From IMG/VR virus record IMGVR_UViG_3300042381_000237, positions 1 to 23,576 of that record: a stretch of DNA of 23,576 bases. One strand, written 5' to 3'. The notes under the pieces are model-generated. The model saw nothing but the letters and a program-made list of their open reading frames with translations, was not told the DNA's origin and made no database searches. This DNA is from a virus. The position numbers and the translations under genes are program-made. Shown here one piece after another: positions 7,904 to 23,388 of this stretch. Position 1 is the first letter of the stretch. Every line of letters starts with the position of its first letter.

Positions 7904-8163
7904 CAGATCATCCTAGCAAGGAGTGGCACCGCCCCGCCGGCGCAGGTTGCCAGGGCATCGAACCATTCTACTCCGTGCGTAGGGGTCAAGCCTGCTCTGA
8001 TAGCGCGTTGGTTGGAGAGCCAGTCGAGCACTTCCTTGCCAACTGCGGCCAGCACTACGAGGCCATAGGCAGCGTCAGGGCGGCGCAGGATGGCCAGCGC
8101 CAGCAGGAAGATCAGCGCGCCGTACAGGGCGTGGTTGGCCTTATCTTGCGGGAGCGAGGGCAT
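7903..8163 (-). CDS. Small multi-span membrane protein
   Basis: 86 residues with a soluble opening LPQDKANHALYG, then hydrophobic stretches ALIFLLALAILRR, AAYGLVVLAAVGKEVLDWL and a C-terminal ALATCAGGAVPLLARMI. The 'DKxNHxxYG', 'GKEVxDxxS' and 'DALATxxGG' pieces appear together in a widespread set of small phage and bacterial membrane or periplasmic proteins of unknown function (YfiM/DUF2279-like). It is the upstream partner of the coiled-coil protein at 7667-7903. It lies at the distal end of the virion operon, after the receptor-binding genes. Role not established. Confidence 0.7.
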   Translation of the reverse strand: MPSLPQDKANHALYGALIFLLALAILRRPDAAYGLVVLAAVGKEVLDWLSNQRAIRAGLTPTHGVEWFDALATCAGGAVPLLARMI

Positions 8164-8205
8164 TGTGTGAATCCTTCGATTCCCTGGTGAGCCGCACCAG
8201 TACGG

Positions 8206-9600: not shown

Positions 9601-9896
9601 TATGCCCCCCAAGGCATTCCAGCGGCCTGAGTAGGAGCCGCCATCAGATCAAGCGTGACTTGCAGATTGGCTTCGGTATCAGGTGCGGCTTCCTTGACCC
9701 ATCCCAGCACGATCTCTTCGGTCAGGTCTTCATAGGGGATGACCGCCTTATCAGGGTCTTGAGTCCAGCAGGCTGCGCTGGTCATCCCTGTAGTGTTCAC
9801 ACCGTCATTGGCAGTTACACCAAACTTCGCCAGGATGACAAACCCATCCGCAGTGGTGCGCTCCAGATCGTTAATAGTCCAGATGAATGAGGTCAT
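9600..9896 (-). CDS. Small fibre-associated phage protein (DUF7936-like)
   Basis: 98 residues. Opening SFIWTINDLERTTADGFVILAKFGVTANDG and the later IPYEDLTEEIVLGWVKE match a conserved small phage protein usually encoded among tail-fibre genes. The fold is likely beta-rich at the start and helical at the end. It lies between the repeat-rich fibre gene (ATGA overlap at 9893-9896) and the LamG gene (TAATG overlap), so its product is made together with the receptor-binding proteins. It may be a fibre chaperone, connector or tip component. The family link is from recall of the motif, not from a search. Confidence 0.7.
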   Translation of the reverse strand: MTSFIWTINDLERTTADGFVILAKFGVTANDGVNTTGMTSAACWTQDPDKAVIPYEDLTEEIVLGWVKEAAPDTEANLQVTLDLMAAPTQAAGMPWGA

Positions 9897-10960
9897 GGTG
9901 TGTACCCTTGTGAGTATGAGCCGTACCAGTTTGTGCCGTCAGCGACAAACGTCAGAATGTCCATCTTGCCCACGGTGGCCGTGATGGTTGGTGCGCCAGA
10001 AGCATTAAACTTCACTCCGGTAAATGTTGCCGTGGTTGCTGTACCGGATGCTGGTTGCTTGAGAAGCAAGATGAATGACTTGCCCGCAGTAGCCGTTGGC
10101 ATTGTGAACGTACATGCCGTAGCACTGGTTAGCGTAGCAGTAAGTACAGTACCGGCAGTGATTGCCAGGGTTGCTGATGCTCCTACTGTGCCGCTGGCTA
10201 CTATGGTCTCAGTGTATGCGGATACAGTCAGGGAGCCGGTGTAGGATATGACCCCCGAGCTATCAATCCGCATCCGCTCGGCACTACCCGCAGCAATGAT
10301 CACAGTATCGCTAAGACCAGCAGTCCCGGCAACTGATCCTATGATCGTGTTGTTGTTGCCTGTGGTTAGTGCGTTGCCTGCACCTTGGCCTAAAGCAATG
10401 TTGCTAGTGCCTGTGGTGTTGGCGTAGAGTGCTTGACGCCCATTGGCAGTGTTGTAAGTGCCTGTGGTGTTGGCGTAGAGTGCTCTATATCCATTAGCAG
10501 TGTTGTTATCGCCTGTGGTGTTGGCGTAGAGTGCTCGAAGTCCAATAGCAGTGTTGTTTTCGCCTGTGGTGTTGGCAGCAAGTGTTTGATATCCGCTAGC
10601 AGTGTTGTTGCTGCCTGTCGTGTTATTTGTTAAGGCCGCGTAACCTACCGCAGCATTGCTACCCCCACTCAAGCTACCACTACTCAGCGCATTAACACCA
10701 ACCGCAGTATTAGTAGCAACTGCATTAGCCCCCAGCCCCACGGTCAGGCCTTGGATCACTGCGCCGCCAGTCAGGGTCGAGACGCCTGTGACACCAAGCG
10801 TTGTGGTCGAAGTGAGGCTCAGAGCACTCACCGCCCGCCCAGCAGTCAGGTTGGCCACCGAGACTTGCTTGGTGGTCGAGCTTTGCACAATCGGCAAGAC
10901 CTCCGTGCCCGCTAGGGGTGTGGTGCTTGCCGGGAGGGCACTGATTTTTGAGTCAGCCAT
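9893..10960 (-). CDS. Tail fibre with YadA-head-like 17-residue repeats
   Basis: 355 residues. The N-terminus (SKISALPASTTPLAGTEVLPIVQ..TTKQVSVANL) is an attachment-type module used by many phage fibres. Residues 107-208 are six 17-residue repeats with core NTTGxxNTAxGxxAL, the left-handed beta-roll motif of trimeric adhesin heads. A linker GSAERMRIDSSGVISYTGS follows, then a Thr/Ala/Ser-rich beta C-terminus ending DGTNWYGSYSQGYTP. It is likely a trimeric fibre that contacts the host surface. AAAGGAAC lies about seven bases before the start. Repeat number is probably variable among relatives. Confidence 0.82.
   Translation of the reverse strand: MADSKISALPASTTPLAGTEVLPIVQSSTTKQVSVANLTAGRAVSALSLTSTTTLGVTGVSTLTGGAVIQGLTVGLGANAVATNTAVGVNALSSGSLSGGSNAAVGYAALTNNTTGSNNTASGYQTLAANTTGENNTAIGLRALYANTTGDNNTANGYRALYANTTGTYNTANGRQALYANTTGTSNIALGQGAGNALTTGNNNTIIGSVAGTAGLSDTVIIAAGSAERMRIDSSGVISYTGSLTVSAYTETIVASGTVGASATLAITAGTVLTATLTSATACTFTMPTATAGKSFILLLKQPASGTATTATFTGVKFNASGAPTITATVGKMDILTFVADGTNWYGSYSQGYTP
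10337..10642. repeat. Six tandem 51-bp coding repeats in the fibre gene
   Basis: The string GCCTGT[GC]GT recurs at 10358, 10409, 10460, 10511, 10562 and 10613, exactly 51 bases apart. The three central copies share 25 identical bases there. Each unit encodes 17 residues of the fibre repeat, and the copy nearest 10337 is the most diverged. Repeats stay in frame, so gain or loss of whole units would lengthen or shorten the fibre without breaking it. Confidence 0.88.
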
Positions 10961-10978
10961 TTTGCTTGTTCCTTTGCT

Positions 10979-11053
10979 TTATGATACACGAACGGAGTTG
11001 ATTGAACCGAGCTCATCCCTTCGGGAAAGGTGCCGCCAGGCCGGAGCTTTCAT
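10979..11053 (-). CDS. Possible 24-residue micro-ORF between fibre and tailspike genes
   Basis: An ATG-to-TAA frame (MKAPAWRHLSRRDELGSINSVRVS) fills most of the 102-base gap between tailspike and fibre genes. It is basic and soluble. No convincing ribosome binding site precedes it, but it lies ten bases after the tailspike stop in a genome that otherwise leaves almost no gaps, so it may be translated by re-initiation. The gap also holds a small TCCC/GGGA hairpin (11016-11026). It may equally be a non-coding leader of the fibre gene. Confidence 0.3.
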   Translation of the reverse strand: MKAPAWRHLSRRDELGSINSVRVS

Positions 11054-11062
11054 CTTGGCTGC

Positions 11063-12796
11063 TTACGTTGCAAAGTACATGCCCGTGATGATTACGTTGG
11101 CCAGCGCACTCCAGGCAGGCGGGTAGATGTTGCCGTTGCCTACGCCGCCAGTTCCAAGGCCAACTGCTGTGGTGTTGTTTGTTGCCACGCATGTTCCGTT
11201 GCTGAACAAAGTGGTGCCAATAGTGAATGCCGTTGTTCCCGCCGTGGCCGTGGTGGTGCTTCCCCCAGGCGAAACAATGTTAATCGTAAAAAAGACCGCA
11301 TCGCCAACATATTGATAAGTAGCGGTAATGGTAGGAGCGCTTCCGGTAACCGTTAAACTAGTAGTTACGGGCGTCCAAGATTCCCTGCTTAATAGTGAAT
11401 CTTTTACTATGCCTGCGCTACCTGCTGGGACATAAAACAGTTGGATATTTCGAGACGCAGTTCCGTTATCTGTAATAGTGCCAGTGTAAGCCATTGCAAC
11501 GGTAACGGTATTGCTAGCGCCAGCATCAATTCTTAGGCTATCTATTTGACCGCCGCTAAAATATGATGAGTTTGACCCGCTTAATAGTATGATCCAAGGA
11601 CTTAGGGTAGCATCAGACGAAATGTTATAAAACGCATTTCGCACGCCGGCGTCTTTTATGTGGAACGTTGTAGCGTTTCCTAAAATTCCATTTGCCTCAA
11701 AAAACGTTCCTGTAAAAGTATTTTCACCAGCACCCGATGAAAGGTTTACAGCGCCTCCGCTTCCGGTAGCAATATAACCGCATCCTTCGACGGTGCCGCC
11801 AATAAATGTATTTGCAACCATAGACGCTGCGTCAATACCGTAAGTGCTGGCTCCTTCAATAACAGGATTTATCCATGTGCAATCAGCGCATTCTTCTCCA
11901 GTACCTCGCGCATTCAAAGACAATCCAGTGGTAGTCAAGATAGTAATGCCAGGCTCATTGCCCGAATAGCAGAAGTCGTAGAACGAATTGGACACCATGA
12001 ATGCGCAGTACATTGCCGAGCCAATCCAGTTGATTGGGCGCAAGCGGTTAAACTCGCTGTGCGTGATGCCTCGGATAAAGACGCCGACGTTGCCAGCCGA
12101 TGAGTTGACGCCATCAATTGTCAGATTTTCAATGACAATATCAGACACTACTACGCCACCGCTTACTAGCGGGGTTGCCCCAGCATCAATAACCAGTCCC
12201 GGCCCTGCGCCGGTAATGTTGAGCACCACCCGCCCGATGCCCTGAATCCTAGTGCCCCGCACCGCAAAGTTAGGCAGAGAGCTAACGCTGTACGTCCCTG
12301 CCGGAATAGTGAGTTGGGTGGATGCCGCAAAAGCATTAGCAAACGCAGTGGTGTTGGCAGCGGCTGAAGCAGAAGGCAAAAAGCCAAAATCCGCTACGCT
12401 TACGCTCTCGCGCAACTTGGCTTGCACCGTAGTGGCCACGGCCCCCGATCCCGCTGGATCGTAAACCACTTCACTTGCGTTGATGATTACGTCGCCATAG
12501 GCCGCCGTAGGAGCAGGCGAACTATAGACGGCACTTCCCTTGGCGTTTTGAACCAAGATGCTGTAGTCGCTGGCCGCGTAGATTACTGCCGGCGTGCCTG
12601 AGTTGACGATGTAGCCGCCAGATGTGCGCAGTGGCTGCGCTGCTGTCTGCGTCAGCGCGGCGTCCCAATAGATGCTGATCGGGTTGGTCTGCGGAGCAAG
12701 ATTGACCGTGCCGATCCAGATGTAGCCGTTGTCCAGCGGCTGGCCATCGGAATCGCTGAAGACTGGGAACGGCGGCTGGATTGAGAGTGCGGTCAT
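11063..12796 (-). CDS. Tailspike with P22-type head-binding domain and beta-helix
   Basis: 577 residues. The first ~110 (PPFPVFSDSDGQPLDNGYIWIGTVNLAPQTNPISIYWD..., then LRTSGGYIVNSGTPAVIYAASDYSILVQN) match the head-binding domain that fixes P22 tailspike to the tail machine. After a linker, SVADFGFLPSASAAANTTAFANAF and LTIPAGTYSVSSL mark the start of a pectate-lyase-3 type right-handed beta-helix, continuing through repeated VSDIVIENLTIDGV-like rungs to about residue 430. A beta-rich C-terminal domain (TYQYVGDAVFFTINI) follows. It should bind and perhaps cleave host surface polysaccharide; catalytic residues cannot be picked by eye. AGGAA lies about eight bases before the ATG. Confidence 0.9.
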   Translation of the reverse strand: MTALSIQPPFPVFSDSDGQPLDNGYIWIGTVNLAPQTNPISIYWDAALTQTAAQPLRTSGGYIVNSGTPAVIYAASDYSILVQNAKGSAVYSSPAPTAAYGDVIINASEVVYDPAGSGAVATTVQAKLRESVSVADFGFLPSASAAANTTAFANAFAASTQLTIPAGTYSVSSLPNFAVRGTRIQGIGRVVLNITGAGPGLVIDAGATPLVSGGVVVSDIVIENLTIDGVNSSAGNVGVFIRGITHSEFNRLRPINWIGSAMYCAFMVSNSFYDFCYSGNEPGITILTTTGLSLNARGTGEECADCTWINPVIEGASTYGIDAASMVANTFIGGTVEGCGYIATGSGGAVNLSSGAGENTFTGTFFEANGILGNATTFHIKDAGVRNAFYNISSDATLSPWIILLSGSNSSYFSGGQIDSLRIDAGASNTVTVAMAYTGTITDNGTASRNIQLFYVPAGSAGIVKDSLLSRESWTPVTTSLTVTGSAPTITATYQYVGDAVFFTINIVSPGGSTTTATAGTTAFTIGTTLFSNGTCVATNNTTAVGLGTGGVGNGNIYPPAWSALANVIITGMYFAT

Positions 12797-12858
12797 TTAT
12801 TGGCTTTCCTGGGTGGATTGTCGCTCAAGGCTGCGCTGGTGGCAATGCGCCGATAGCG

Positions 12859-14892
12859 TCATCGGTTGGCTTTGCGCTTCAGCAGCTCTTCCATCGATTT
12901 GACGGCGTTTTCTTTGTTGATCCCGCGTAAATTTTCCGCTTTTTCGGCCAGCAAGTCGAATGCTCTTTCGGCAATTCGACCACGGGCAATGTCAACCCCA
13001 GTCCCTAAAACGCCTTGAGCAACTTCGCTTTTTAGTGAAGTCTGCGCAGCCGCGCCAAACATGCGGTCGAGTTCATTGACAAAAATAAGCTGGCTCACAA
13101 TGTCATCGTCTAGCTTCATGCCGTACTTGGCGGCCACTTGGTTGGCCTGGTCAAGTGAGTCAATCAGGTTGGCGCGTGTGCTGTAGTTGCTGGTCAACTT
13201 GCGCATGGCCGTGCCAAGGGCTTTGTTGGCGTTCTCTGAATCAAAGTTAATTTGAGTGCCTGCGGATTTCTGCAATTCGTCTAGCGCTGTGATGGTGTCG
13301 GCATACTTTTCATTAGCGGCTTTGTAGACTGGAAACTTTTCGCCTAGTGATTGGTTCAAGTTGCGGCGCAAGCCTTTAACGGCCCTTTCCGCTTCAGCGG
13401 TCAACGGGTTAGCAATACTTCTTTTGCCGTAGTCAACTTGTGTGTCAATGAATCGCTTTGCATCATGGACCCCTAATGCATCGGGCGCTTCTGTTTTGCT
13501 TAATCTTTTGAGAACGCGGTTAAGCAACTTCTCACCAGCTTCATCCCCTTCAATCCTTGATCCTGCCAAGTTGGCTTTGGCAACGCCATTTTGATCTAGC
13601 TCAACTTTAACGCCGATCTTGCCCAGGTCATCAATAAATGAATTTACAGCAGTATCGTAGTCAACGGTCTGGCCGCGCAGCCTGCTTTGTGCAATGCGGT
13701 CAATGGCTTTTCCAGATGACTTATTTGCCTTATCAAGAAAATCAATCCGAGCCTGTACGGTGTCCCCAAGAATGTCTGCTGGCCTGTTTAGTGTCCGATA
13801 GACCTCGCTCTTTTCGCCCATCTTAAATTTGTTGAGCATCTGGAGCATGGCCGTGCGGTCTTTGTCGGATGCGGCCTTGATGCTGGCAATCGTTCCGTCC
13901 TTCCAGCCTTGATTAATGGCTGAAACTGCTTCGTTGTCCGGTACTGCTTGAGTGCCTGACAAACGAAACTTTACAGTTTCCACTGAATCAGGATTCTGGG
14001 AAATTTGCCGCTTAATGAGCTGTTGATTTTCTGGAGAAATCTTTTCGCCAATGGTGGCTTTGATGCTTTGTAAAGATTCTTGCACCGTTGGCGCATCACT
14101 TGGGGTGTAGCCAAGTCGTAATTGCTCAGCCGTTACTGGAGCGCCTTGCTCTTTAATGCCGGCGCCAGGTGCCGCAATCTGCTTTGCAACTTTTCCAGCA
14201 ACTGCTTTTAATGCTGTAGGTATAGATGGAACGAAAGCACCGCCTACGGTTGCTGCAATTTGACCAACAGGGCCGGCCCCTGCTTCTTTTGCCAATTGTC
14301 CTGCGCCACCAGCCGTTGCGCCCGTGACTGTTTGCAGGCCTGGCGTGGTCGCCATCATACGGCCAACCTCCCGGGCGACTGGCCCTGTTGCGGCAGATTC
14401 CAAGGCTTTGCCTACGGCAACTCCGCCTGCGCCGCCGCTTGCGCCAGCCGCTGTCGTCTGTACGATGCGCTCTGCTGCTGTGCGTGGTTGCGCTACACCG
14501 ACACGAGTAAGCAAATCCTCCAATGCATCGGTAGGCAATGTGTATTTTGTGCCGAATAGACTATTGATTGAACCAACAATCGGATCGCCAAGCACTCCCG
14601 CAAGGGTAGCGGCACCAGCACCTGCAATAGCTCCTGGGATCGCGCCAATGCCAGCAAACGGTGCGCCGATCATTGCGCCAAGTGTCGCACCAGCTGCCGG
14701 CAAAGCCAAGCCCCTGGTAGCCGCGCCAGCAACGCCGGCTGCGGTTGTGGCTGGCACGTCAACAGCGCCGCCATATTGAGCCGCAAGGGCCGTCAGGTCT
14801 TCTTGTTTGGCGGGTGGCGGAACTCCCGCCTCAGAAGACGGCTCAACTATGCCGCCAAATTGCTTTGCAAGTGCTTTATAGTCTGTTGCCAT
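12859..14892 (-). CDS. Ejection (internal virion) protein, P22 gp16 position
   Basis: 677 residues. The N-terminus repeats an ALAxQ[FY]GG motif (YKALAKQFGGIVEP and DLTALAAQYGGAVDVP). Residues ~50-120 are Ala/Gly-rich and hydrophobic (GAATRGLALPAAGATLGAMIGAPFAGIGAIPGAIAGAGAATLAGVLG), suited to membrane insertion. The long C-terminal part is helical and charged. Size, Gly/Ala-rich membrane-active segment and position (third of three, next to the tailspike) match the gp16-type ejection protein of P22-like phages (about 600 residues), which passes into the cell with the DNA. No lysozyme or transglycosylase motif is seen. The start overlaps nothing, but its stop and the tailspike are separated by 62 bases with no clear signal. 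Confidence 0.72.
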   Translation of the reverse strand: MATDYKALAKQFGGIVEPSSEAGVPPPAKQEDLTALAAQYGGAVDVPATTAAGVAGAATRGLALPAAGATLGAMIGAPFAGIGAIPGAIAGAGAATLAGVLGDPIVGSINSLFGTKYTLPTDALEDLLTRVGVAQPRTAAERIVQTTAAGASGGAGGVAVGKALESAATGPVAREVGRMMATTPGLQTVTGATAGGAGQLAKEAGAGPVGQIAATVGGAFVPSIPTALKAVAGKVAKQIAAPGAGIKEQGAPVTAEQLRLGYTPSDAPTVQESLQSIKATIGEKISPENQQLIKRQISQNPDSVETVKFRLSGTQAVPDNEAVSAINQGWKDGTIASIKAASDKDRTAMLQMLNKFKMGEKSEVYRTLNRPADILGDTVQARIDFLDKANKSSGKAIDRIAQSRLRGQTVDYDTAVNSFIDDLGKIGVKVELDQNGVAKANLAGSRIEGDEAGEKLLNRVLKRLSKTEAPDALGVHDAKRFIDTQVDYGKRSIANPLTAEAERAVKGLRRNLNQSLGEKFPVYKAANEKYADTITALDELQKSAGTQINFDSENANKALGTAMRKLTSNYSTRANLIDSLDQANQVAAKYGMKLDDDIVSQLIFVNELDRMFGAAAQTSLKSEVAQGVLGTGVDIARGRIAERAFDLLAEKAENLRGINKENAVKSMEELLKRKANR

Positions 14893-16310
14893 TATTTAAT
14901 CCCTGCGGCTTTTTTGTAAGCATCGGCAGCAGCTTGATTAGGAAATTTGACTCTTGTCCCATCAGGTAGTGGAACAAAAACTTCCTGTTTTGCTGGAACA
15001 TCACTTGGCAAAGCAGGCAATCCTGCGCGAGCTGCAATATTAACTCTTGCAATTTCCATTAATCTTACTGCTTCAGTGACATTTGCAATAAGTTGGCTTG
15101 GAGATTGTTTCAAGCTCAAATTCTGCAAAGACGCTTGCAACTTGTCGCCTTCTTTTTCAGTTAAAGTGCCGGTCCCTTTGATTTTTGGTATTTGAGCAAT
15201 AAATGCTTGCGACCCAAGAGTCTCAACTAATGCCTCAAAGTCGGCAACATCCTGATTGGTAGTTGGCAATCTTGATGCTATTGGCCCAGTTGCAGATTTA
15301 ATAATGCTTATTGGTGTCCGCTTGATTTGTTCGGCTGTATTGATGAAGTTGTCAATGTCTGCCGATTGACTGGCAAGCGTTGCTCGTTGATCCCTGTCTG
15401 CAGTGTCTCGCTTGTCTTTTGCATCATCAATTTTTTGCCGCAATTCATCTCGCCGAAGTAAGTTTGTTTCTTTGGCTTGTGCTGCGTTAAGCGCTGCAAT
15501 GAGAGCGTTCTCTCTGTTAATGATAATGTCTGCATCAGTCTTGCGTATAACAGCGGCTGACTTGTCAATCTCTGCTTGTTCTTTTCGTTCTGTAAACTTA
15601 GCCTCGACCGCCGCCTTGGCTGCGTTTGCCGTTGCTAGTGCGGCATCAGCGGCTGCTTTCTCCTTCGAATTCTTGGCGGCGTCTTGAGCTACAGTAGCAT
15701 CTGCTATGGCTTTATCTGCCTTTGCAATGGCTTCTCTTTTTACTTCTGGCGCCAAGGCCTCTTCCCGCGCCGTGCTCAAGCTCTTGTCAATGTTCTCAAA
15801 GAATTCTTTTGCACCTGGGATGCCTGCTGTACGAGCTGCCAAAGATTTGAAAACAATGGTTGGGCCACGTTTTGGATCTGCTGCTGCTGTGGCCATGTCA
15901 TCAAACAAAGCGGCGTCCTGGTTGTCACCGCTGTTGCGTGCGGCAGCGGCGCTATCTTGCAGAAGTTTGATGCCAATTTCCGGGTTTGTTTGCAGTGCCG
16001 AAAGGATTCGACCAGTGGAATTCAGTGTGCCTTGCTGCTGCTCTTTGCTGATGCCTTCCATGAATGGTCGGAATGCGTTGGCCTGCTCTGGCGAAAGGAG
16101 CGAGGCGTAGCGGGCAGCGTCACGCATGGTAGGGTTAGGATTCGTAAAGAATTTAGCCTGCTCTTGCGCCGCCAACTGTTGCCGCTGTTGCTGCTGGACC
16201 ATGGCGGCTTGCTTTTGCTGCAACTCGACCATGCCAGCGCCAAGCTGGAGGCCTTGCAATGATTGAGCAAAGGGGTCAGCGACTTGTGCGAGGTAGTTGA
16301 TTGGTTCCAT
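14892..16310 (-). CDS. Ejection (internal virion) protein, P22 gp20 position
   Basis: 472 residues, close to the ~470 of P22 gp20. The opening EPINYLAQVADPFAQSLQGLQLGAGMVELQQKQ and long glutamine-rich helix (AAMVQQQQRQQLAAQEQAKFF) are typical of these proteins. Residues ~190-310 form an extended charged coiled coil (AIADATVAQDAAKNSKEKAAADAALATANAAKAAVEAKFTERKEQ). The C-terminus, FVPLPDGTRVKFPNQAAADAYKKAAGIK, is a short beta-helix unit seen in phage internal proteins. Its stop overlaps the start of the gp16-position gene (TAATG at 14890-14894), so both are made together. Assignment is by position and architecture. Confidence 0.75.
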   Translation of the reverse strand: MEPINYLAQVADPFAQSLQGLQLGAGMVELQQKQAAMVQQQQRQQLAAQEQAKFFTNPNPTMRDAARYASLLSPEQANAFRPFMEGISKEQQQGTLNSTGRILSALQTNPEIGIKLLQDSAAAARNSGDNQDAALFDDMATAAADPKRGPTIVFKSLAARTAGIPGAKEFFENIDKSLSTAREEALAPEVKREAIAKADKAIADATVAQDAAKNSKEKAAADAALATANAAKAAVEAKFTERKEQAEIDKSAAVIRKTDADIIINRENALIAALNAAQAKETNLLRRDELRQKIDDAKDKRDTADRDQRATLASQSADIDNFINTAEQIKRTPISIIKSATGPIASRLPTTNQDVADFEALVETLGSQAFIAQIPKIKGTGTLTEKEGDKLQASLQNLSLKQSPSQLIANVTEAVRLMEIARVNIAARAGLPALPSDVPAKQEVFVPLPDGTRVKFPNQAAADAYKKAAGIK

Positions 16311-16319
16311 GGTGCGCCT

Positions 16320-17096
16320 TTAGAAGCTCAAGCCAAGATCTTGATTGCCGTATGCAAGGCCAGAGCCGAAGCCAGAGGAGCCGAGTGGGGTTTGTGAGAA
16401 TCTGGCTTGCAGGCTTGAGGCGTCATTGCCAAAAAGATTGCCAAACCCACCCGCACCTTGAAGTGTGCCGAATGCTTTGTTGATGCCGCCAGTGAGTGCG
16501 CTTTGCTGGCCTAGGATTCCGCCAGCTTCGGCCTGTCCTTGCCGCCCAAGTAGGGTGGCAATGTTGGTTCCTGTGGACATGCCGGCATTGCCGACGCCGG
16601 CAGCTGCGTTCTGGCCAATGGAGGTCAAACCACCGAGGCGGCCGTATTGCTGTTCAATCAGGCTGGAGAGGAGTTGAGGCCTAAATTGAGCAAGAGCGGC
16701 TTGCACGTTGCCGCCGCGCAGACCGCCAGTAGCTGACGCATTCTGGAGGATGGCGTTTTCACCTTGCTGCTGGAGCGCAGCAAACTGTGGGCTGCCTTGC
16801 AGGGCTGCGATAGCTTGCTGTTGTGCGCCTGGCGCACCTAGTCCAAGCAAAGCCTGCTGCTGTGCGAGCGCTCCTGTGCCGGCTTCGTTGTAAGGCTGCA
16901 AGAGCTGCCGAATGGCATCAAACTGTCGGCGCTGTTCGTCGATTCCGCCTTGCGCTGCTTGCTGCTGTACTTGTGAGGCTTGGCCTACCGACTCGCTGCC
17001 CTCAATCGCTCCACCAAGACCGGCGCCAATTGCACCGCCGACTCCCGGAAGGAAGAAGTTGCCCGCAATGCCGCCCAGTACGCTGAGTAGACCCAT
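16320..17096 (-). CDS. Ejection / DNA transfer protein, P22 gp7 position
   Basis: 258 residues (P22 gp7 about 230). N-terminal GLLSVLGGIAGNFFLPGVGGAIGAGLGGAIEG is a glycine-zipper-like hydrophobic helix, followed by a Gln-rich region (QVQQQAAQGGIDEQRRQFDAIRQLLQPYNEAGTGAL) and Gln/Gly/Ala-rich repeats (ALLGLGAPGAQQQAIAAL, LRGGNVQAALAQF). This 'QYNEAGTGAL..Q..L.G' pattern is widespread in phage DNA transfer proteins annotated with gp7-like function. GAGGTG lies four bases before the ATG. It is the first of the three coupled ejection genes and directly follows the HNH insertion in the minus-strand direction. Confidence 0.78.
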   Translation of the reverse strand: MGLLSVLGGIAGNFFLPGVGGAIGAGLGGAIEGSESVGQASQVQQQAAQGGIDEQRRQFDAIRQLLQPYNEAGTGALAQQQALLGLGAPGAQQQAIAALQGSPQFAALQQQGENAILQNASATGGLRGGNVQAALAQFRPQLLSSLIEQQYGRLGGLTSIGQNAAAGVGNAGMSTGTNIATLLGRQGQAEAGGILGQQSALTGGINKAFGTLQGAGGFGNLFGNDASSLQARFSQTPLGSSGFGSGLAYGNQDLGLSF

Positions 17097-17167
17097 AAAA
17101 ACACCTCAATATTCATTGGATGCCGCTGGTAGCGTTTTCCTCAGCGACTTGATTTTCACACAAATGC

Positions 17168-17195
17168 TTGCTTTTGCAAACGCCTATCGTAAAAT
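17168..17195 (+). promoter_or_regulatory. Possible promoter for the HNH endonuclease gene
   Basis: TTGCTT (17168-17173) and TAAAAT (17190-17195) are spaced by 16 bases on the plus strand, in the 186-base gap between the gp7-position gene and the HNH gene. The gene lies opposite to its neighbours and so needs its own promoter. The -35 match is weak (three of six). The rest of the gap shows only a short CGCT/AGCG hairpin near 17125. Confidence 0.35.
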
Positions 17196-17282
17196 TGGCT
17201 GGCAGCTTACCCGACGGGGGACAGGCGATTCATCACCGCTTGCTGCAACTTTTGATGGCTTTCCACTCCGATGAGGTGCAAC

Positions 17283-17762
17283 ATGATCGCTCAACAACGA
17301 CTGCGCGAGCTTGCGCATTACTGCCCAAAAACTGGAAAATTTACCCACCTTCAGTCTAAGGGGCGCAAGAAATCCGGGACGCCTGCCGGGTCGCTGCGAT
17401 GCGATGGGTACGTTTACGTCATGTTCGACGGATTCCGTGCAATGGCGCACCAGTTCGCGTTGCTGTACGTGACGGGCGAATGGCCAACGCAAGAGATTGA
17501 CCACATCGACGGCAATAAAGCCAACAATGCCTTTGCCAACTTGCGGCAGGTAAGCAGGCGAATTAACACCGAGAACAAGCGCGCAGCCAAGCGCACCAGC
17601 ACGACTGGATTGCTTGGCGTGATAAGGCATCCACGTGGGTTTGTTGCTCGCATCGTTAGTGAAGGCAAGCGCACATATCTTGGCATCTTTGAGACGCCAG
17701 AGGCTGCGCATGAGGCCTACGTGCAGGCAAAGCGAGAGTTGCATCAAGGCTGCACCATTTAA
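17283..17762 (+). CDS. HNH homing-type endonuclease with AP2 DNA-binding domain
   Basis: 159 residues from the ATG at 17283, chosen over 17271 because GAGGTG lies four bases upstream. The HNH_3-type nuclease core is visible as MAHQFALLYVTGEWP (H57), EIDHIDGNKANN (D73, H74, N78) and ANLRQVSRRINTENK. An AP2-like DNA-binding unit follows at 105-157 (TGLLGVIRHPRGFVARIV..KRTYLGIFETPEAAHEAY). This HNH-AP2 pair is typical of free-standing homing endonucleases that spread through phage genomes by cutting gene-free relatives. It is the only plus-strand gene inside the minus-strand virion block, fitting an inserted mobile gene. No intron or intein boundary is seen. It overlaps the convergent neighbour by four bases. 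Confidence 0.9.
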   Translation: MIAQQRLRELAHYCPKTGKFTHLQSKGRKKSGTPAGSLRCDGYVYVMFDGFRAMAHQFALLYVTGEWPTQEIDHIDGNKANNAFANLRQVSRRINTENKRAAKRTSTTGLLGVIRHPRGFVARIVSEGKRTYLGIFETPEAAHEAYVQAKRELHQGCTI

Positions 17763-18157
17763 TCGTCTTCCTGCTCTCGTTCTTCCCATGCTTGACATGA
17801 TCTCATGTCATGACAAATGAAATCAAAATTTTTGCAGTAGCCGCGATACCCTGCTCCATCGTCCCATTGGTTGCGTGGGATTCTGTCCATCTTGGCTTGC
17901 GTCAGCGGGTCATTGAAAAAGTACTCACAGTTCGAGCACCGGCGGCGGCGGGCCTCTTTCTCGTCCACCTGCATCGCCTTGCCAACAGCGACCCAATAGA
18001 CCTTGTTGGCCGTTGGCTCGTTGGATGGGTTCTCAGGGCCAAGCATCCAGTCCTCGATGACGGCATCGGTGTTCTTCTTGTTCTTCGCCGTGGTGATGAA
18101 CTCCTCGCCCATCGGCAGGCCTGCAAAGCCCTGGGGGATGACCATAAATTCTTTCAT
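17759..18157 (-). CDS. Cys-rich conserved phage protein
   Basis: 132 residues. The N-terminal part starts MKEFMVIPQGFAGLPMGEEFITTA and is followed by KVYWVAVGKAMQVDEKEARRRR. The C-terminal third carries CSNCEYF, GYCKNFDFICHDMRSC and a closing QAWEE, a likely zinc-binding unit. A similar C..C....C..C..W arrangement appears in the small protein at 2665-2856. It lies between the needle-like gene region and the ejection genes, where P22 has its small head-assembly gene gp14, but sequence gives no sign of that function. It is probably a conserved virion-associated or assembly protein of unknown role. Confidence 0.7.
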   Translation of the reverse strand: MKEFMVIPQGFAGLPMGEEFITTAKNKKNTDAVIEDWMLGPENPSNEPTANKVYWVAVGKAMQVDEKEARRRRCSNCEYFFNDPLTQAKMDRIPRNQWDDGAGYRGYCKNFDFICHDMRSCQAWEEREQEDD

Positions 18158-18171
18158 GCTGTTGGGCTCCT

Positions 18172-18507
18172 TCAGGTAATTTCGCGGCCTGATGCGCGGA
18201 TGGTCAGCGATGTGGCTGCGCTGGCAATGGTAGAGATGAGGCCGCCGGGCTCCAGCGCTTGACCGACCAACTCCGGGAACGTGTAGGTCTCGTCCGGTGC
18301 AATGCTGCGAGTGTCCACGATCAGGTTGGCCGCGCCAGCGCTGCCGCTACTGGTCACCAGGTTGACGCCGATCGTCACGTTGCCGCCGCTGGTGTTGGTG
18401 GCGGTGAATTTGTCGATGATCGCCTTGCAGTTGATGGCGGTGTACTGCGTGGTCTGGCTGTTCTCGGCCTGCTTTGCTGGGATTAGGACTTTGACGGTTA
18501 CGGTCAT
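18172..18507 (-). CDS. Small beta-rich structural protein
   Basis: 111 residues, almost all beta-type sequence: VTVKVLIPAKQAENSQTTQYTAINCKAIIDKFTATNTSGGNVTIGVNL, then DTRSIAPDETYTFPELVGQALEPGGLISTIASAATSLTIRASG. The pattern 'FTATNTSGGNVTIGVNLV...G.L.Iv..r.I.pgeTy..pel.G..L.pG..I' is frequent in small phage structural proteins with a jelly-roll or Ig-like fold. It sits just downstream of the needle-like protein and eight bases separate them. Likely a virion decoration or tail component. Name and precise role are unknown. Confidence 0.7.
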   Translation of the reverse strand: MTVTVKVLIPAKQAENSQTTQYTAINCKAIIDKFTATNTSGGNVTIGVNLVTSSGSAGAANLIVDTRSIAPDETYTFPELVGQALEPGGLISTIASAATSLTIRASGREIT

Positions 18508-18515
18508 GATGGCTT

Positions 18516-19754
18516 TTATTGCTCGGTTTGAGTGACGGCAAGGATGACGGCTGGCGCTGCTGGGGCAAAAGCGGTAGCCGCTACGGTTGCAATGCTAACG
18601 TTGGTATTATTTGCGGCATACATTACTTCAATAAAATCACCAGCAAGCAAGGACGCAACTTCATTTAGCGTTATTACCAAATACCCATTGTTCAGCGTGA
18701 TAGATGCAACTCTAGCTGAATTAGTAAAGTCAGTTGTGCCATTCAATCGCAACCAAATCCAAATAGATTTCTGAGATGAATTGGTTGATGTAATCTGCAC
18801 CGAGCAAGCAATATTGTACAGTCCAGCCTGGGCAACAATAATTTGCGATGTTGTTCCGCCAATACTGACGCCATTGGCGATCTCTGTATTAGTGAACAGC
18901 AACGGATAAGCCGTGTTGATTACAGCAGGGCTTTGGCTATTTGTTTTGGTGAATTCGCCGTAATAAATTTGCTGTTCAATGGTTGGGCGTACAAATATAA
19001 CGCCGTCAGTTGTGCCAACTTGCAGAACGGCTGCAATTGGAACCACGTTATTTGGCGCAGTAGGCTTAACATTGGTAAGCCCTCCGGCCACGGTAGGCGA
19101 GGCGTACAAAATGTCGCCCAACGTAAACGCACTGGTGTCCAGATTGCGCACAAACCCCCATACAGTGCAGTATCCTTTTTCTCCAGTGTCCGGTAAATCG
19201 TGCGTCATTACGCCAACAACATATAGCGTATTTGTTGCGCCATTTGCTAGGTATGGAGCAATCGACAACGCGCTATCGGGAACGGCCCCCGTAAAGCCCA
19301 CCACGGTGCCGTTGGGGATGGTGACGCCGGTGAAGTTGGCTACGCGAGCGTAGGTTTCTAGCCCAACTTGCTGAACAACGCCGTACTCCATCCCAATATC
19401 AGCGGTTTGGTCTGTCTCGTTCCACGCCATGCGTGCCATGCGGGAAACGTGTGGTGCGGATTGATCGAAGTCGATGTAATCAGTAACAACAGAGTTGTTG
19501 TTCTCAATGACTGGGGCCGCCGCCAGCAGTTCTACCGCATTGGCGATGCGCGTGAGTTGCGCCAGTGCATCATTCGCCGTGGCCTGGGCGTTGCCGGCAG
19601 CGATGTTGACCTCCAGCACGCCATCAGGCCCGATGGCATCAACGGCCGCAAACAGCAGTTCGAACTGTCTGATCTGCTGCTGGTCGGTCAAAAACTGCGC
19701 GAGCTGATCCCGCGTCAGATTGAGCTTGCGAGAGTTCGGCGCAGTGGTTGCCAT
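18516..19754 (-). CDS. Tail-needle-position protein with jelly-roll (C1q/TNF-like) tip
   Basis: 412 residues immediately after the gp10-like gene, where P22-like phages encode the gp26 tail needle. Residues 1-85 are helical (LTRDQLAQFLTDQQQIRQFELLFAAVDAI, AQATANDALAQLTRIANAVELL), suited to a trimeric coiled coil. The middle (GMEYGVVQQVGLETYARVANFTGVTIPNGTVVGFTGA ... GDILYASPTVAGGLT) is a beta module seen in phage fibres. The last ~145 residues (YGEFTKTNSQSPAVINTAYPLLFTNTEI ... GLYNIACSVQIT ... GDFIEVMYAANNTNVSI) have the layout of a C1q/TNF-like jelly-roll knob. DNA coding the tip is much more AT-rich than the N-terminal part. Needle function is inferred from position and architecture. Confidence 0.65.
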   Translation of the reverse strand: MATTAPNSRKLNLTRDQLAQFLTDQQQIRQFELLFAAVDAIGPDGVLEVNIAAGNAQATANDALAQLTRIANAVELLAAAPVIENNNSVVTDYIDFDQSAPHVSRMARMAWNETDQTADIGMEYGVVQQVGLETYARVANFTGVTIPNGTVVGFTGAVPDSALSIAPYLANGATNTLYVVGVMTHDLPDTGEKGYCTVWGFVRNLDTSAFTLGDILYASPTVAGGLTNVKPTAPNNVVPIAAVLQVGTTDGVIFVRPTIEQQIYYGEFTKTNSQSPAVINTAYPLLFTNTEIANGVSIGGTTSQIIVAQAGLYNIACSVQITSTNSSQKSIWIWLRLNGTTDFTNSARVASITLNNGYLVITLNEVASLLAGDFIEVMYAANNTNVSIATVAATAFAPAAPAVILAVTQTEQ

Positions 19755-19757
19755 GCT

Positions 19758-21272
19758 TTAGAACGCCAGCGCTTCTAGCTGGGCCTCGAGCCTGGCGAAT
19801 GACACGTGGGCGCTACTGTCGCCCCTGAAGCGCTGGATGCGCCAGTTGCGCATGTGGCCTTGCTGAAACCATGCCAGGCGCTTCTTGGTGTCTCCTGTGG
19901 TGCCGACTGAGATGAACCTGTCCTGGCTCCATGATCTGCCGTCCACCGAGTAGCTCGTGCTGATCTGCGGGTTTCCGAGTGCCGCTGAATTCGGAACAGC
20001 GAGCTCGAGCAGGATGTATTCGCCATTCTCTTGCAGCAAAAAGAACCCGTTTTCTTGGAGCAAGCCGTTGACCACCTGCGTGGCCAGGGCAACGCTTCCC
20101 GTCAATGCCACCAGTTCTAGCTTGTTGAAGATGGCGCCATTGCTCTCGTTGTAGACGATGAGCGTACCGAATTCCCAACGCACCTGTTGGCCCCAGTGGT
20201 GGCCGGTGTCCTGCACGAGATACCCGATGGCGTTGGACTGCGGATCTCCGACCAGCCACTTGCTGTAGCACCAGACGATGTTCCTGGCCCGGTACTGCGC
20301 GATGCCGGTGGTGGTGCTGGCCAGAACAAACCAGACCTGCTCCTGCAACTCTCGAGAGGCCGATGCGTCGTAGACCAGCGTTTGGTCTGGCAGGTGAACG
20401 TAGAGGTGTTCGTGCGCCTTGTCGTTCCTGGACTCTAGCTTTACCGTGCTCAGTTGAGCCTCGGTGTACCGCTGAAGAATGTTGTCGATCTCTTGAGTGC
20501 TGACCTTTGTTGTCGTTGCGGAGACGCCAAGATAGATGCCGGGTGCCTCGTTCCGCCCGCCGCCAAGGAAGGCCATCGCATCAACAAAAACGCAGCAGGC
20601 CTGAGTGCCAACAACACCCTTTTGAATCTGAGCGCCCTCGATCCTTGCGAACGGAAACAGATCGCCGCCCACGTTGTTGAAGACCTCGATGGTGTGCCGA
20701 TTGAGAGCGTAAACCTCGTTGCGGAGCTTGAGCAGCGCTAGTATCGGGTCGGGGTCTGCTTCGCTTGACCCGTACTTCAGCGGGTTGACGGCGAATGGAT
20801 CGTTTAGCTCTGTGACGATCAGGTACTGGCCATCGGTGGTCATGAAGTAGCCATCGACCCAACAGAAGTCGATCACGAAGCCCAGGTCCGGGTCTGTGAC
20901 TTGCAGCAACCCTGCAGTGCTGTTCCAGTAGTACAGGCGGCCACCGGATGCGACCGCCAGGCTGGTGAAGCTGTAGTCGAAGGTCACCAGGTTGGTGGTT
21001 GGCCCGCCAACGTCGCCAAGGACGGTTACAGCGCCGCTGCTTGAGACAGAGACCAAGCTGGTGCCCATGACCCGATAGCAGATGTTGTTCCACTCAATGC
21101 CGCCGCGGTCAACGCCTGGGCCTGTCCCATTGGCGACAATGCCATCACCTGGGCGAAGGAAGCCGTTGCTGATGCCGCTGACCTTTGGCACGGGCACCAG
21201 ATTGACGGGGTAGCTGGTGCGAATCTCCGGCGTGCCGTCAGTGTAAATTCCGTTCAGGATTGGAATTTGCAT
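19758..21272 (-). CDS. Packaged-DNA stabilisation protein, P22 gp10-like
   Basis: 504 residues (P22 gp10 about 470). The start PILNGIYTDGTPEIRTSYPVNLVPVPKVSGISNGFLRPGDGIV follows the conserved opening 'PVN..P.PK....S.GfLR..PGi' of the Phage_stabilise family, and the whole is a WD-like beta-propeller pattern with repeated short strands (VDGYFMTTDGQYLIVTELND, ALNRHTIEVFNNVGG, PFARIEGAQIQKGVVG, YCFVDAM-like pieces). The protein plugs the portal channel after packaging and holds the needle. An inserted piece near 20010-20063 repeats LLQENG/YILLE as in the small gene at 21567-21701. Upstream is the DUF6321-like gene and downstream the needle candidate, as expected. Confidence 0.88.
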   Translation of the reverse strand: MQIPILNGIYTDGTPEIRTSYPVNLVPVPKVSGISNGFLRPGDGIVANGTGPGVDRGGIEWNNICYRVMGTSLVSVSSSGAVTVLGDVGGPTTNLVTFDYSFTSLAVASGGRLYYWNSTAGLLQVTDPDLGFVIDFCWVDGYFMTTDGQYLIVTELNDPFAVNPLKYGSSEADPDPILALLKLRNEVYALNRHTIEVFNNVGGDLFPFARIEGAQIQKGVVGTQACCVFVDAMAFLGGGRNEAPGIYLGVSATTTKVSTQEIDNILQRYTEAQLSTVKLESRNDKAHEHLYVHLPDQTLVYDASASRELQEQVWFVLASTTTGIAQYRARNIVWCYSKWLVGDPQSNAIGYLVQDTGHHWGQQVRWEFGTLIVYNESNGAIFNKLELVALTGSVALATQVVNGLLQENGFFLLQENGEYILLELAVPNSAALGNPQISTSYSVDGRSWSQDRFISVGTTGDTKKRLAWFQQGHMRNWRIQRFRGDSSAHVSFARLEAQLEALAF

Positions 21273-21275
21273 GGC

Positions 21276-21560
21276 TTACCACTTGACCTTATCGGCCCAA
21301 TACGCTGCGCTCATCTTGCCCTTGGAGATGTTCTCGGCGTGCCTAGCCTTGAATGACTCTCGGCGAGCCTGTGACGCCTTGGACTCGCCCTCCGTCTTCG
21401 GCGACCCGGATACGCCTTGCTGGCCGAAGCGAATGGTCTTCACTTGGTCGCCGGCCTTGGCCACAACAACATGGCTTTTGGTCGGATGCGATGGCGTGCG
21501 CTTGGGCTTGTTGTAGCCCTCGACGCCAGCCCGATCCAGTCTTGAGTCTTTGGCGCCCAT
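21276..21560 (-). CDS. Small basic conserved phage protein (DUF6321-like)
   Basis: 94 residues, strongly basic. Core segments AGVEGYNKPKRTPSHPTKSHVVVAKAGDQVKTIRFGQQGVSG and KARHAENISKGKMSAAYWADKVKW match a widely shared phage protein group known as DUF6321. The family occurs in structural gene clusters of cyanophages and many podoviruses; function is not established, though its basic charge and 'FKARHxxNIxKGKMSAAYWADKVKW' tail suggest nucleic-acid or virion binding. It lies between the gp10-like gene (three bases away) and the 44-residue gene. Confidence 0.82.
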   Translation of the reverse strand: MGAKDSRLDRAGVEGYNKPKRTPSHPTKSHVVVAKAGDQVKTIRFGQQGVSGSPKTEGESKASQARRESFKARHAENISKGKMSAAYWADKVKW

Positions 21561-21566
21561 GATGCC

Positions 21567-21701
21567 CTAGTCAAGCAAAATATACGCGCCATCCTCTTGC
21601 AGCAGGAAGAACCCATCCTCCTGCAACAGCGCTCCGGCAACTGGGCCGCCACCGATATTCCAGAATCGAATACGGAAGCGCAGCCGAGTCAGCGGGTACA
21701 T
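21567..21701 (-). CDS. 44-residue phage protein with LLQEDG repeat motif
   Basis: A short ATG-to-TAG frame with GAGGG about eight bases upstream, starting two bases from the stop of the previous gene. The sequence opens MYPLTRLRFRIRFWNIGGG and ends in LLQEDGFFLLQEDGAYILLD. This doubled 'LLQEDG' unit is nearly the same as one inside the gp10-like protein (LLQENGFFLLQENGEYILLE). Short proteins with this motif are encoded among structural genes in many phages and are often missed. It may be a small virion component that docks in the same way as the gp10 segment. Function unknown. Confidence 0.7.
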   Translation of the reverse strand: MYPLTRLRFRIRFWNIGGGPVAGALLQEDGFFLLQEDGAYILLD

Positions 21702-21702
21702 C

Positions 21703-22005
21703 TCAGAAGCCCTCGCCAGGCATGACGTGCAGGGACGTGCCGGCTGCGGAGATGTACGCCATTAGGCTGTAATCGCCGGGCTTGGTGATGGTTACCTGTG
21801 CGCCTCCCGGCACCGGGTAATCTGCCGTGGTTGCGACCACCGGGGCGGTTTCACCAAAGCGGATGTAGCAGACATTTGCGCCGAGGTTGGTCAAACAGAC
21901 GGTCTGCGTAGCGCCGGTAACCGTTGCGGTGGCCGATGCCGCTCCTGGGGACACGATGACGCCACGGTTGTAGCCTGGCGAAAATGGGGCTGAGTTGTAA
22001 GGCAT
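21703..22005 (-). CDS. Small beta-rich structural protein
   Basis: 100 residues. PYNSAPFSPGYNRGVIVSPGAASATATVTGATQTVCLTNLGANVCYIRFGETAPVVATTADYPVPGGAQVTITKPGDYSLMAYISAAGTSLHV is a single small beta-sandwich in pattern, as in phage capsid decoration or tail proteins. 'VCLTNLGANVCYIRFGE...A....D.pvp.Ga.v.itkp.d...maYIsaaGtSLhV' is a frequent phage motif. A strong site GAGCGAACCC lies just upstream (AGGAGCG, seven bases). It lies in the cluster of small genes between the gp4-like and gp10-like genes. Precise role unknown. Confidence 0.75.
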   Translation of the reverse strand: MPYNSAPFSPGYNRGVIVSPGAASATATVTGATQTVCLTNLGANVCYIRFGETAPVVATTADYPVPGGAQVTITKPGDYSLMAYISAAGTSLHVMPGEGF

Positions 22006-22023
22006 TGGGTTCGCTCCTGAAAA

Positions 22024-22479
22024 TTAGCCGATGCGATACCAAGAGTTGGTCGCTTGGTAAAAACGCATGGTGAAGAACGCATTGGCGGCCAAGGTGGTCG
22101 GCGCTCCGAATGCCGCGGCAGCGCCGTTGAGCGCCAACGTGAATGCCGTGATGATCTGCGTGGTGGTCACCAGCAACTGCGTCCCGTCTGGCGTGCCGGT
22201 ATTGAGCGGGAGCGTGATCGTGCCGGTGGCCAGCGTGCCGGCTGGCTGCAGCAACATCCACTGCTGTTCGCTGACTGGCGTTGGAACGGTGACGTTGAAC
22301 CCGGCGCCTGGGGTGTAGAGGTTGGTGGAGACGGTCGGCGCTGCAAAGACGGTCTGAAAGTACGTCAGCAACTGGGTAACGCTGACCTTGCGAGCATCGC
22401 CGTTGTTCGGGACGTAGATCGGCAGAAGATCGCCGCCGGATATCTGACTGAGGCCTGCTAGTTGATTGATCGTCGGCAT
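22024..22479 (-). CDS. Small structural protein with fibre-type N-terminus
   Basis: 151 residues. The N-terminus, INQLAGLSQISGGDLLPIYVPNNGDARKVSVTQLLTYF, is the same kind of module as in the 355-residue fibre (I-x-x-L ... LPI ... KQVSV-x-L). The remaining ~100 residues are beta-rich (YTPGAGFNVTVPTPVSEQQWMLLQPAGTLATGTITLPL, NTGTPDGTQLLVTTTQIITAFTL, TMRFYQATNSWYRIG). This two-part architecture is common in phage structural proteins placed next to tail completion genes. A fibre adaptor or virion decoration role is inferred only from the shared module. An AAAGAGG site lies about seven bases before the ATG. Confidence 0.72.
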   Translation of the reverse strand: MPTINQLAGLSQISGGDLLPIYVPNNGDARKVSVTQLLTYFQTVFAAPTVSTNLYTPGAGFNVTVPTPVSEQQWMLLQPAGTLATGTITLPLNTGTPDGTQLLVTTTQIITAFTLALNGAAAAFGAPTTLAANAFFTMRFYQATNSWYRIG

Positions 22480-22491
22480 GTGTGGCCTCTT

Positions 22492-22974
22492 TCAGGTGTA
22501 TTCGAGCGGGCCGTCCTGGCCGGCCAGGGTTGGGTAGACAGGCCTGGCCAGGAATGGATTGTCGTAGACCCTCCAAGGCTTGTTGCCTGCGCCAGATGGC
22601 ATGGTTCCTGGCATCTGTTGCTCAATCGGCATGGCGGCCCTGGACAGGAGGGTATTGTACGTCTCCTTGGCTGTCATCTTGGTGTCTGGCATGACCTGCT
22701 TGCCGTAGGACGGAGCCAGTTTCACGCCGAGATTGGTGTAGATCGCTTCGTTGGATGAATCCGGGACGTTGGTCTGCTCGTCCAGATCGCTGTCCTGCGG
22801 GCTCGAGGGGAGCGGGTAGCCCAAGCGGATGCCAAGCGCATTCCACGATGCAATCATGGTATCAAGTCGGCGCAGAGCGCTGTCGAGTTGCTCCGGCGTG
22901 AGATCAAATACGTAGGACGCCAGCCCGATTTCCTCGAAGGCCTGCGTTACGAACTGGCGCTTGGTCCATCCCAT
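22492..22974 (-). CDS. Tail accessory factor / head completion protein, P22 gp4-like
   Basis: 160 residues (P22 gp4 is 166). The opening TKRQFVTQAFEEIGLASYVFDLTPEQLDSALRRLDTMIASWNALGIRLGYPLP is diagnostic of this family: 'A.eeiGl....fdltpeql..aL.rLd.Mia.W...Girl.Y..p'. Further on, LGVKLAPSYGKQVMPDTKMTAKETYNTLLSRAAMPIEQQMPGTMPSGAGNK fits the C-terminal region. Gp4 binds the portal after DNA packaging and forms the platform for gp10. Some gp4 proteins also have muramidase activity, which sequence here does not decide. Upstream is the SAP/HeH-like gene with three bases between them. Confidence 0.9.
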   Translation of the reverse strand: MGWTKRQFVTQAFEEIGLASYVFDLTPEQLDSALRRLDTMIASWNALGIRLGYPLPSSPQDSDLDEQTNVPDSSNEAIYTNLGVKLAPSYGKQVMPDTKMTAKETYNTLLSRAAMPIEQQMPGTMPSGAGNKPWRVYDNPFLARPVYPTLAGQDGPLEYT

Positions 22975-22977
22975 TGC

Positions 22978-23388
22978 TCAGACTCCTGTGATTCGGTGCT
23001 GGATCAATTGTCCCAGCTTTCTGTCCGGCGTGCGACCGTCGAAGCGAATGTCTAGCTCTCGCGCTTTGAGCTCAAGCTCTTGCCGCGTTGGTGGTGCGTC
23101 ATCCTTTGGGGCTGGTGCTGCCGCTTTGGCCAACTCGCGCCAGTCTAGAGGCTTTGAGGGCTTGTGCTTCTTGACTGGCTTGCGCAGCCACTTGGCCTTG
23201 ATCTTAACCGGGCCGCCGGCCTTGTCGCCAGCAGCGATGATAGCCTCATCGGACGATGCAAACCAGCCGGCTGCCAGCTTGGCGTCGGCCTGCTCTTGGG
23301 TCTGTACGCCGATGATCTTGTAGGTGCCAGTGCCGCCAGGCTTTGGGATTTGCCCTGGCGACTGGTAGAGCATGGCCGGGAGTTGCAT
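22978..23388 (-). CDS. Head-completion-region protein with HeH/SAP-like C-terminus
   Basis: 136 residues. The N-terminal half (LPAMLYQSPGQIPKPGGTGTYKIIGVQTQEQADAKLAAGWFASSDEAIIAAG) has a 'Tyr-x-x-Val.....eq.dA.laaGWf.s.deAi' pattern common in phage proteins near portal and coat genes. The middle is Lys/Pro/Ala-rich linker. The end, TRQELELKARELDIRFDGRTPDRKLGQLI, has the helix-extension-helix layout of HeH/SAP-type nucleic-acid-binding motifs. It starts from an ATG overlapping the previous stop (TAATG) and precedes the gp4-like gene. Role unproven. Confidence 0.72.
   Translation of the reverse strand: MQLPAMLYQSPGQIPKPGGTGTYKIIGVQTQEQADAKLAAGWFASSDEAIIAAGDKAGGPVKIKAKWLRKPVKKHKPSKPLDWRELAKAAAPAPKDDAPPTRQELELKARELDIRFDGRTPDRKLGQLIQHRITGV

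Follow-up and report, generated by a model that had tools for sequence, protein, structure and literature searches.

By its architecture, its distribution and the natural co-conversion recorded beside it, the lone plus-strand gene among the late genes of the window (the whole 23,576-nucleotide stretch of viral DNA analysed here) is, as judged from sequence, a free-standing HNH-AP2 homing endonuclease gene. Comparison with relatives suggests that this gene was copied in from another phage and brought with it an altered end of the neighbouring gene. We consider it highly probable that the gene spreads by intronless homing, through gene conversion and together with a target allele that is probably resistant to cutting.

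The HNH-AP2 gene (17283..17762, plus strand) encodes 159 amino acids; its open reading frame covers 17271..17762, with the conserved start ATG at 17283 and the stop codon at 17760-17762. It is flanked by a P22 gp7-like DNA ejection gene (16320..17096, minus strand; PF25688, E 6.2e-8; phrog_598, E 6.5e-38) and by a gene for a Cys-rich protein of 132 amino acids (17759..18157, minus strand), whose product matched nothing in Pfam or PHROG at E 0.01 or better. An earlier sequence-only reading had placed the gene at 17097-17762. Its end at 17762 stands and its start does not, as coding begins at 17283; 17097 is the first base past the ejection gene, and 17097-17282 is therefore upstream region. Other parts of that description hold: in the list of open reading frames all other tiled genes from 7667 to 23388 lie on the minus strand, forming a late-gene stretch of about 15.7 kb around the HNH-AP2 gene; a ribosome binding site (RBS), GAGGTG at 17273-17278, is present four bases 5' of the ATG; and the four-base overlap with the convergent neighbour can be read directly as TTAA (17759..17762), where the stop codons of the HNH-AP2 and Cys-rich genes overlap. 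No Rfam family, intron families included, matched around the gene; nothing reached the gathering score across the window or appeared up to E 5 in 16900-17900, and thus no known intron, riboswitch or ribozyme lies at the site. The gene is situated outside any intron or intein, between two open genes. Elsewhere in the window, a minus-strand gene at 9893-10960 carries short repeats (NTTGxYNTANGxxALYA) and is perhaps a fibre or tail part, and another at 8206-9612 (minus strand) has two similar-looking halves, each with an NGVQ.G motif, that appear LamG-like by eye.

The HNH_3 domain (Pfam PF13392) of the encoded protein scores 45.7 bits, above the cut-off of 24.8 (E 4.9e-12), and the best PHROG is phrog_99 (E 9.1e-52). 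The Pfam AP2 domain scores below its cut-off (22.8 versus 33.3 bits, E 1.2e-4), and we count a C-terminal AP2 domain on this sub-threshold match together with matches to PDB profiles and structures. A profile of 14 sequences searched against the PDB matched I-HmuI (1u3e, E 2.1e-8) over positions 37-101 as well as plant AP2 domains. With the AF2 model of the protein (pLDDT 89.7), Foldseek returned nothing at E 0.001 or better; VIA, which takes a second look at Foldseek's own candidates, gave scores that are middling by the tool's notes, both for the AP2 chains 7et4 and 7wq5 (Z 7.6 and 7.2) and for I-HmuI 1u3e (Z 7.4, rmsd 3.0 over 95 residues). Residues D73 H74, N82 and N86 L87 R88, which make up a DH...N...NLR block, are invariant in the 14 aligned sequences, which excludes the loss of the active-site histidine that the sequence-only reading had named as counter-evidence; we take the catalytic roles of these residues to be those of their counterparts in I-HmuI. 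Additionally, pairwise dN/dS among 12 close homologues (66 pairs) has a median of 0.14 and ranges from 0.06 to 0.29, and the protein is therefore under purifying selection.

Relatives of the HNH protein are encoded at 28 viral loci, three of which (L026-L028) are short partial matches that were left out of the analysis. In loci L001-L022 the HNH is 79-91% identical to that of the window and directly follows the Cys-rich stop. The relatives examined are the best 80 of 495 and the best 80 of 481 loci, and frequencies given here describe these nearest relatives. Many relatives among the matches listed carry no HNH gene at the site and have the Cys-rich stop separated from the ejection gene by about 70-80 bp; in other HNH-less relatives among these matches the gap measures 411-538 bp, or 1015 bp in two, and two HNH-less loci (L064 and L083) stop short of the ejection gene. 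At-site carriers account for 14 class-I alleles and one class-II allele among 104 distinct Cys-rich alleles (again among the matches listed). In L029 the gap holds an annotated minus-strand gene (L029:5742-6227), named as a tetracenomycin polyketide synthesis protein in MW202867.1, where the Cys-rich homologue is named as a high potential iron-sulfur protein; both of these annotations seem questionable.

The site is therefore not occupied in all relatives, and the comparison with gene-free phages proposed from the sequence alone does yield an empty site. Empty alleles occur in close relatives, L110 and L111 among others. In the best of these, L110, blastn aligns window positions 12522-17162 at 94.9% and 17775-21221 at 90.9%, such that a segment of 612 bp (17163..17774) takes the place of 32 bp of the empty allele (L110 3447-3478). 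Two further HNH-less relatives are 94.2% identical over 17775-23154 (L054, whose gap holds a different stretch) and 93.5% identical over 19576-22008 (L034). The gene had been described as having landed precisely between the ejection genes and the Cys-rich gene: the location is borne out, but 32 bp were replaced and the import reaches into the Cys-rich gene. In a genome-contig collection, a search that finds close relatives only gave 24 pattern matches, none a relative by tblastn. The HNH protein matches 2563 records of a phage collection, all below 60% identity (the best among the matches listed about 38-43%), and hence the family is widespread and close relatives are absent from that collection; the flanking region matched two of its records, with 37% and 6% covered.

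How far the import extends can be seen in the identity to L110. On the ejection side, 200-bp steps between 16000 and the insert give 98-100%, and on the Cys side identity is 75% at 17800-17999 and then 94.5-99.5% from 18000 to 18600; the stretch of about 75% identity corresponds to the last ~160 bp of the Cys-rich gene. The dip recurs with L054, to which identity is 74% at 17775-17974 and 93.9-97% in the kilobase that follows. Further out, identity to L110 falls again, at 18600-19400 and at 15000-15400. Across the 104 distinct Cys-rich sequences, the 3' part of the window's gene is nearest to HNH carriers and its 5' part is nearest to sequences without HNH at the site. For 20 of 25 recipient/donor pairs, a maximum chi-square scan located the break at Cys position 238 (window 17919); the other five, which all had L016 as donor, gave position 339 or 341. 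In none of the 25 pairs was any of 500 permutations as extreme. The Cys-rich gene is thus a chimera of a resident 5' part (17920..18157, minus strand), delimited by the 5' tree, and an imported 3' tail of HNH-carrier type (17759..17919, minus strand), delimited by the breakpoint scan, the 3' tree and the carrier-specific alignment columns, which begin at 17919. In the 5' tree the window falls within a set of 22 sequences, 21 of them without HNH at the site (starred branch, support 97), and in the 3' tree it groups with three other HNH carriers in a four-member set made up of carriers only (starred branch, support 98). In the 3' tree, a single set takes in 14 of the 15 site carriers together with one non-carrier. 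In the 5' tree, the starred branches require HNH state at the site to have changed four times or more, and the best tree has five such changes.

A comparable pattern is seen in other carriers. When carrier L015 is compared with L125, identity on the ejection side is 95-100% to 4750, falling to 88% where it meets the insert. The 150 bp of Cys-rich sequence that adjoin the HNH gene are 68% identical and the following 300 bp 95-96%; beyond 5950 identity drops again, in another divergent stretch. In 11 of 14 class-I carrier sequences, which are related to one another, the best breakpoint lies within Cys positions 200-243 (elsewhere in L001, L004 and L011), and in nine of the 14 none of 200 permutations reached the observed value. 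For three sequences (L005, L007 and L018) the window itself served as donor, and the breaks placed in them may thus reflect its own; without them, 8 of 11 breakpoints fall within positions 200-243. The asymmetry is reversed for the class-II HNH of L128 compared with L137, where the Cys side is 82-99% identical (mostly 94 or more) and the ejection side 54-84%; the HNH gene that L128/L080 (1468-1947) has at this site is 49% identical and is preceded by nearly the same leader. The class-II pair and the breakpoints of L001, L004 and L011 count against the homing account. The identity dip next to the insert, the break within the Cys-rich gene and the conflicting trees support the reading that the final ~160 bp of this gene were imported along with the HNH gene, with co-conversion of the flank seen as a natural pattern rather than in a cross (17759-17919; L015/L125). 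The sequence-only reading is thus borne out in its observation and in most of its interpretation; its suggestion that the gene may bias inheritance of neighbouring genes finds support in the form of this natural co-transfer.

Within the imported tail, the candidate altered target is codons 78-90 of the Cys-rich gene (17888..17926, minus strand), where EYFFNDPLTQAKM replaces EYYDNSTMTQAKM. The third residue of this segment is F in all 14 class-I carriers, which read EYFEATP... or EYFFNDP...; among the 86 HNH-less sequences in the matches listed it is Y in 82 and F in four (L081, L085, L166 and L169), and four sequences with a class-II or other-side HNH retain Y. The segment was picked after the alignment had been inspected, which makes this association post hoc, and the tree provides only four to five independent pairs for HNH versus altered segment, nearly always in the same direction (sign test, median p 0.125). 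On the simplest reading, the target is altered in carriers. Alternatively, a linked tail could hitchhike, with crossovers favoured in a CSNCEY-coding block that is common to carriers and non-carriers and lies just before the breakpoint. On the altered-target reading, L081 is a candidate resistant empty allele: at L081:4501-4890 it has the full carrier-type Cys segment and lacks the HNH gene, as would be expected of an HNH-less, resistant allele. If repair must span both the break and the inserted gene, the break is to be expected either within the final ~160 bp of the Cys-rich gene or within the 32-bp junction, and the tract would thereby narrow the likely cut site to about 190 bp.

The HNH gene is preceded by a conserved leader (17201..17282, plus strand, RBS GAGGTG at 17273-17278 included). 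The 71 hits to this ~82-nt leader come from overlapping loci and represent 18 distinct sequences with a mean column identity of 91%. At 13 loci compared, the leader is 78-96% identical to that of the window and the coding sequence 51-88%; in 7 of the 13, the sequence 5' of the leader has 34-56% identity to that of the window and is thus dissimilar. The leader precedes HNH-AP2 genes of 43-50% amino acid identity to that of the window in the five unlike cases compared (L188, L195, L207, L049 and L080). It was also observed in different surroundings at L049:4885-4972 and in L195, L207, L210, L212, L213 and L215; L214 was dropped as a chance match to the leader pattern. RNAalifold folds the leader into a three-way junction with a hairpin covering the RBS and two compensatory pairs (6 cells). 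Of the cells, 99.2% are paired versus 97.8% in shuffles, pairs changed on both sides are not unusual (reached by 102 of 500 shuffles) and further pair types number six, fewer than in shuffles (mean 7.0). The minimum-energy fold of the window's own leader differs from the consensus fold (z 0.13), which makes the RNA structure tentative; a pseudoknot between CATC and GATG is possible. The leader is not in Rfam 15, was absent from the genome-contig collection as an exact pattern and gave no match in the phage collection. Among the paper titles listed by a literature search, none is on an HNH leader RNA, which is not proof of absence, and the leader may be an undescribed regulatory RNA.

The sequence-only reading had also given the gene a weak promoter of its own. 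A putative promoter, read from the sequence, lies upstream of the leader (17168..17195, plus strand), with TTGCTT at 17168-17173, a 16-nt spacer and TAAAAT at 17190-17195. Conservation speaks for it, as TAAAAT or a similar hexamer stands 5 nt before the leader in the relatives inspected, but the consensus promoter scan flagged nothing at the HNH site. On the minus strand, a promoter-like element before the ejection gene (17152..17179), likewise read from the sequence, consists of TTGCAA, a 16-nt spacer and GAAAAT. Its counterpart in L110 has TTGAC(g), a 16-nt spacer and GAAAAT, and the first hexamer overlaps the Cys-rich stop; as the sequences read, the insert removes this TTGAC(g) and places TTGCAA at the same spacing. 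Either minus-strand hexamer pair could act as a promoter. An inverted repeat upstream of the ejection gene (CGCTGAG...CCAGCG, 17122..17148, minus strand) is retained in empty alleles. The element at 17122-17162, which in HNH-less relatives follows the Cys-rich stop (TTGAC, GAAAAT and the inverted repeat), is kept in many relatives, with or without a longer gap, and is possibly an internal promoter of the late operon with a 5' hairpin.

A second docking site lies just upstream of the Cys-rich start. In L049 it holds a 46%-identical HNH gene with the same kind of leader, convergent with the abutting late gene, and the two stops overlap by four bases (CTAA). At both docking sites, the end of the cassette can be read directly as supplying the TAA stop of the convergent gene. 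The second site is empty in L034 and L057. In L059 (about 3225-3240) it contains a short scar, GTCCTAAATGG, whose sequence is that of the L049 cassette's 3' end, as though an HNH gene had been deleted there; loss of HNH genes is therefore probable as well. A broader reading, which we offer tentatively and would not favour at present, is of a self-insulating homing cassette: the ~82-nt leader, with its three-way-junction RNA and RBS-sequestering hairpin, would serve as an exchangeable module for unlike HNH-AP2 genes at several sites, with a cut-resistant tail and with edges that supply the neighbour's stop and promoter.

In the homing mechanism that we propose, the enzyme would nick or cut the HNH-less allele of a co-infecting relative during mixed infection; the likeliest place is around codons 79-84, within the final ~160 bp of the Cys-rich gene. 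During repair, the HNH cassette would then be copied into the recipient genome along with the Cys tail of the carrier. Because the conserved YYDNST-coding stretch is absent from the imported tail, carriers would be protected from their own enzyme. The cassette would bring its own -10, conserved leader and RBS. Its 3' end would supply the neighbour's stop codon, and its 5' edge would restore the -35 spacing of the promoter-like element, which together should leave the late operon hardly disturbed.

Ordinary phage recombination between conserved blocks could move the same HNH and Cys-tail block with the nuclease uninvolved. The late operon is mosaic elsewhere, as the outer drops in identity to L110 and the drop beyond 5950 in L015/L125 attest, and the CSNCEY-coding block shared by carriers and non-carriers may favour crossovers and so account for the clustering of breakpoints. 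Set against this are the repeated changes of HNH state on the 5' tree, a tract that abuts the HNH gene on one side, the purifying selection on the HNH protein and its intact active-site residues, and we therefore regard recombination alone as unlikely, with the nuclease the probable driver. It is less probable still that the HNH gene is ancestral and was lost from the empty relatives: loss does occur, as the L059 scar indicates, and L081 retains the carrier-type Cys segment with no HNH gene, but the HNH-less L110, L054 and L034 share the window's flanks and not its Cys tail, which makes one gain in the window the simpler history.

A domesticated HNH with a phage function, such as aiding DNA packaging or excluding competing phages, would have a precedent in phage HNH proteins that work with terminase (the HK97 case, PMC10448857). 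The sporadic presence of the gene among the Cys-rich alleles listed (14 class-I and one class-II of 104) and its exchange between phages argue against such a role, which we rate as very improbable. On the homing interpretation, the near-isogenic occupied, empty and HNH-less-but-altered alleles would document homing as it occurs in nature among P22-gp7-type phages, and would show how the coding sequence of an adjacent late-operon gene can be changed by a selfish gene; such genes can thus reshape their neighbours.

The kind of element is already known from PMC10448857 and PMC2988022, and what is new relative to the accounts given there is the leader, the presence of a second docking site and the narrow limits of the tract. 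The gene resembles the HNH-AP2 homing endonucleases described for vibriophage ICP1 ('IPA-HNH'), which have an N-terminal HNH and a C-terminal AP2-like domain and often lie near essential phage genes (PMC10448857). Unlike those, whose domains are described as too divergent, the window's HNH passes the HNH_3 Pfam cut-off (PMC10448857), and it is placed against the late operon and has a leader. Free-standing phage endonucleases are described as intergenic, cutting at a distance and leaving co-conversion tracts, and T4 endonucleases that displaced promoters are known (PMC2988022). The likeness to the intronless homing of T4 Seg and Mob extends to intergenic insertion, co-conversion of flanks, cleavage at some distance from the point of insertion, host promoters that are displaced or embedded and, in some, RBS hairpins (PMC2988022). 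Unlike them, the window's gene has an AP2-type DNA-binding domain, its own -10 and a conserved leader, an orientation opposite to the operon and a tract of only about 160 bp. I-HmuI, the intron-encoded HNH of a Bacillus phage, is similar in the profile match over positions 37-101 and in structure, but no group I intron was matched here and most of the AP2-like C-terminus falls beyond the region matched to I-HmuI. Finally, the I-HmuI-like HNHs of lactococcal Skunavirus phages likewise occupy several insertion locations in one phage group and, for some, have marker-exclusion activity, which we count as a likeness (PMC12724721); they differ in belonging to different phages, and AP2 is unmentioned in the main text of that report (PMC12724721).
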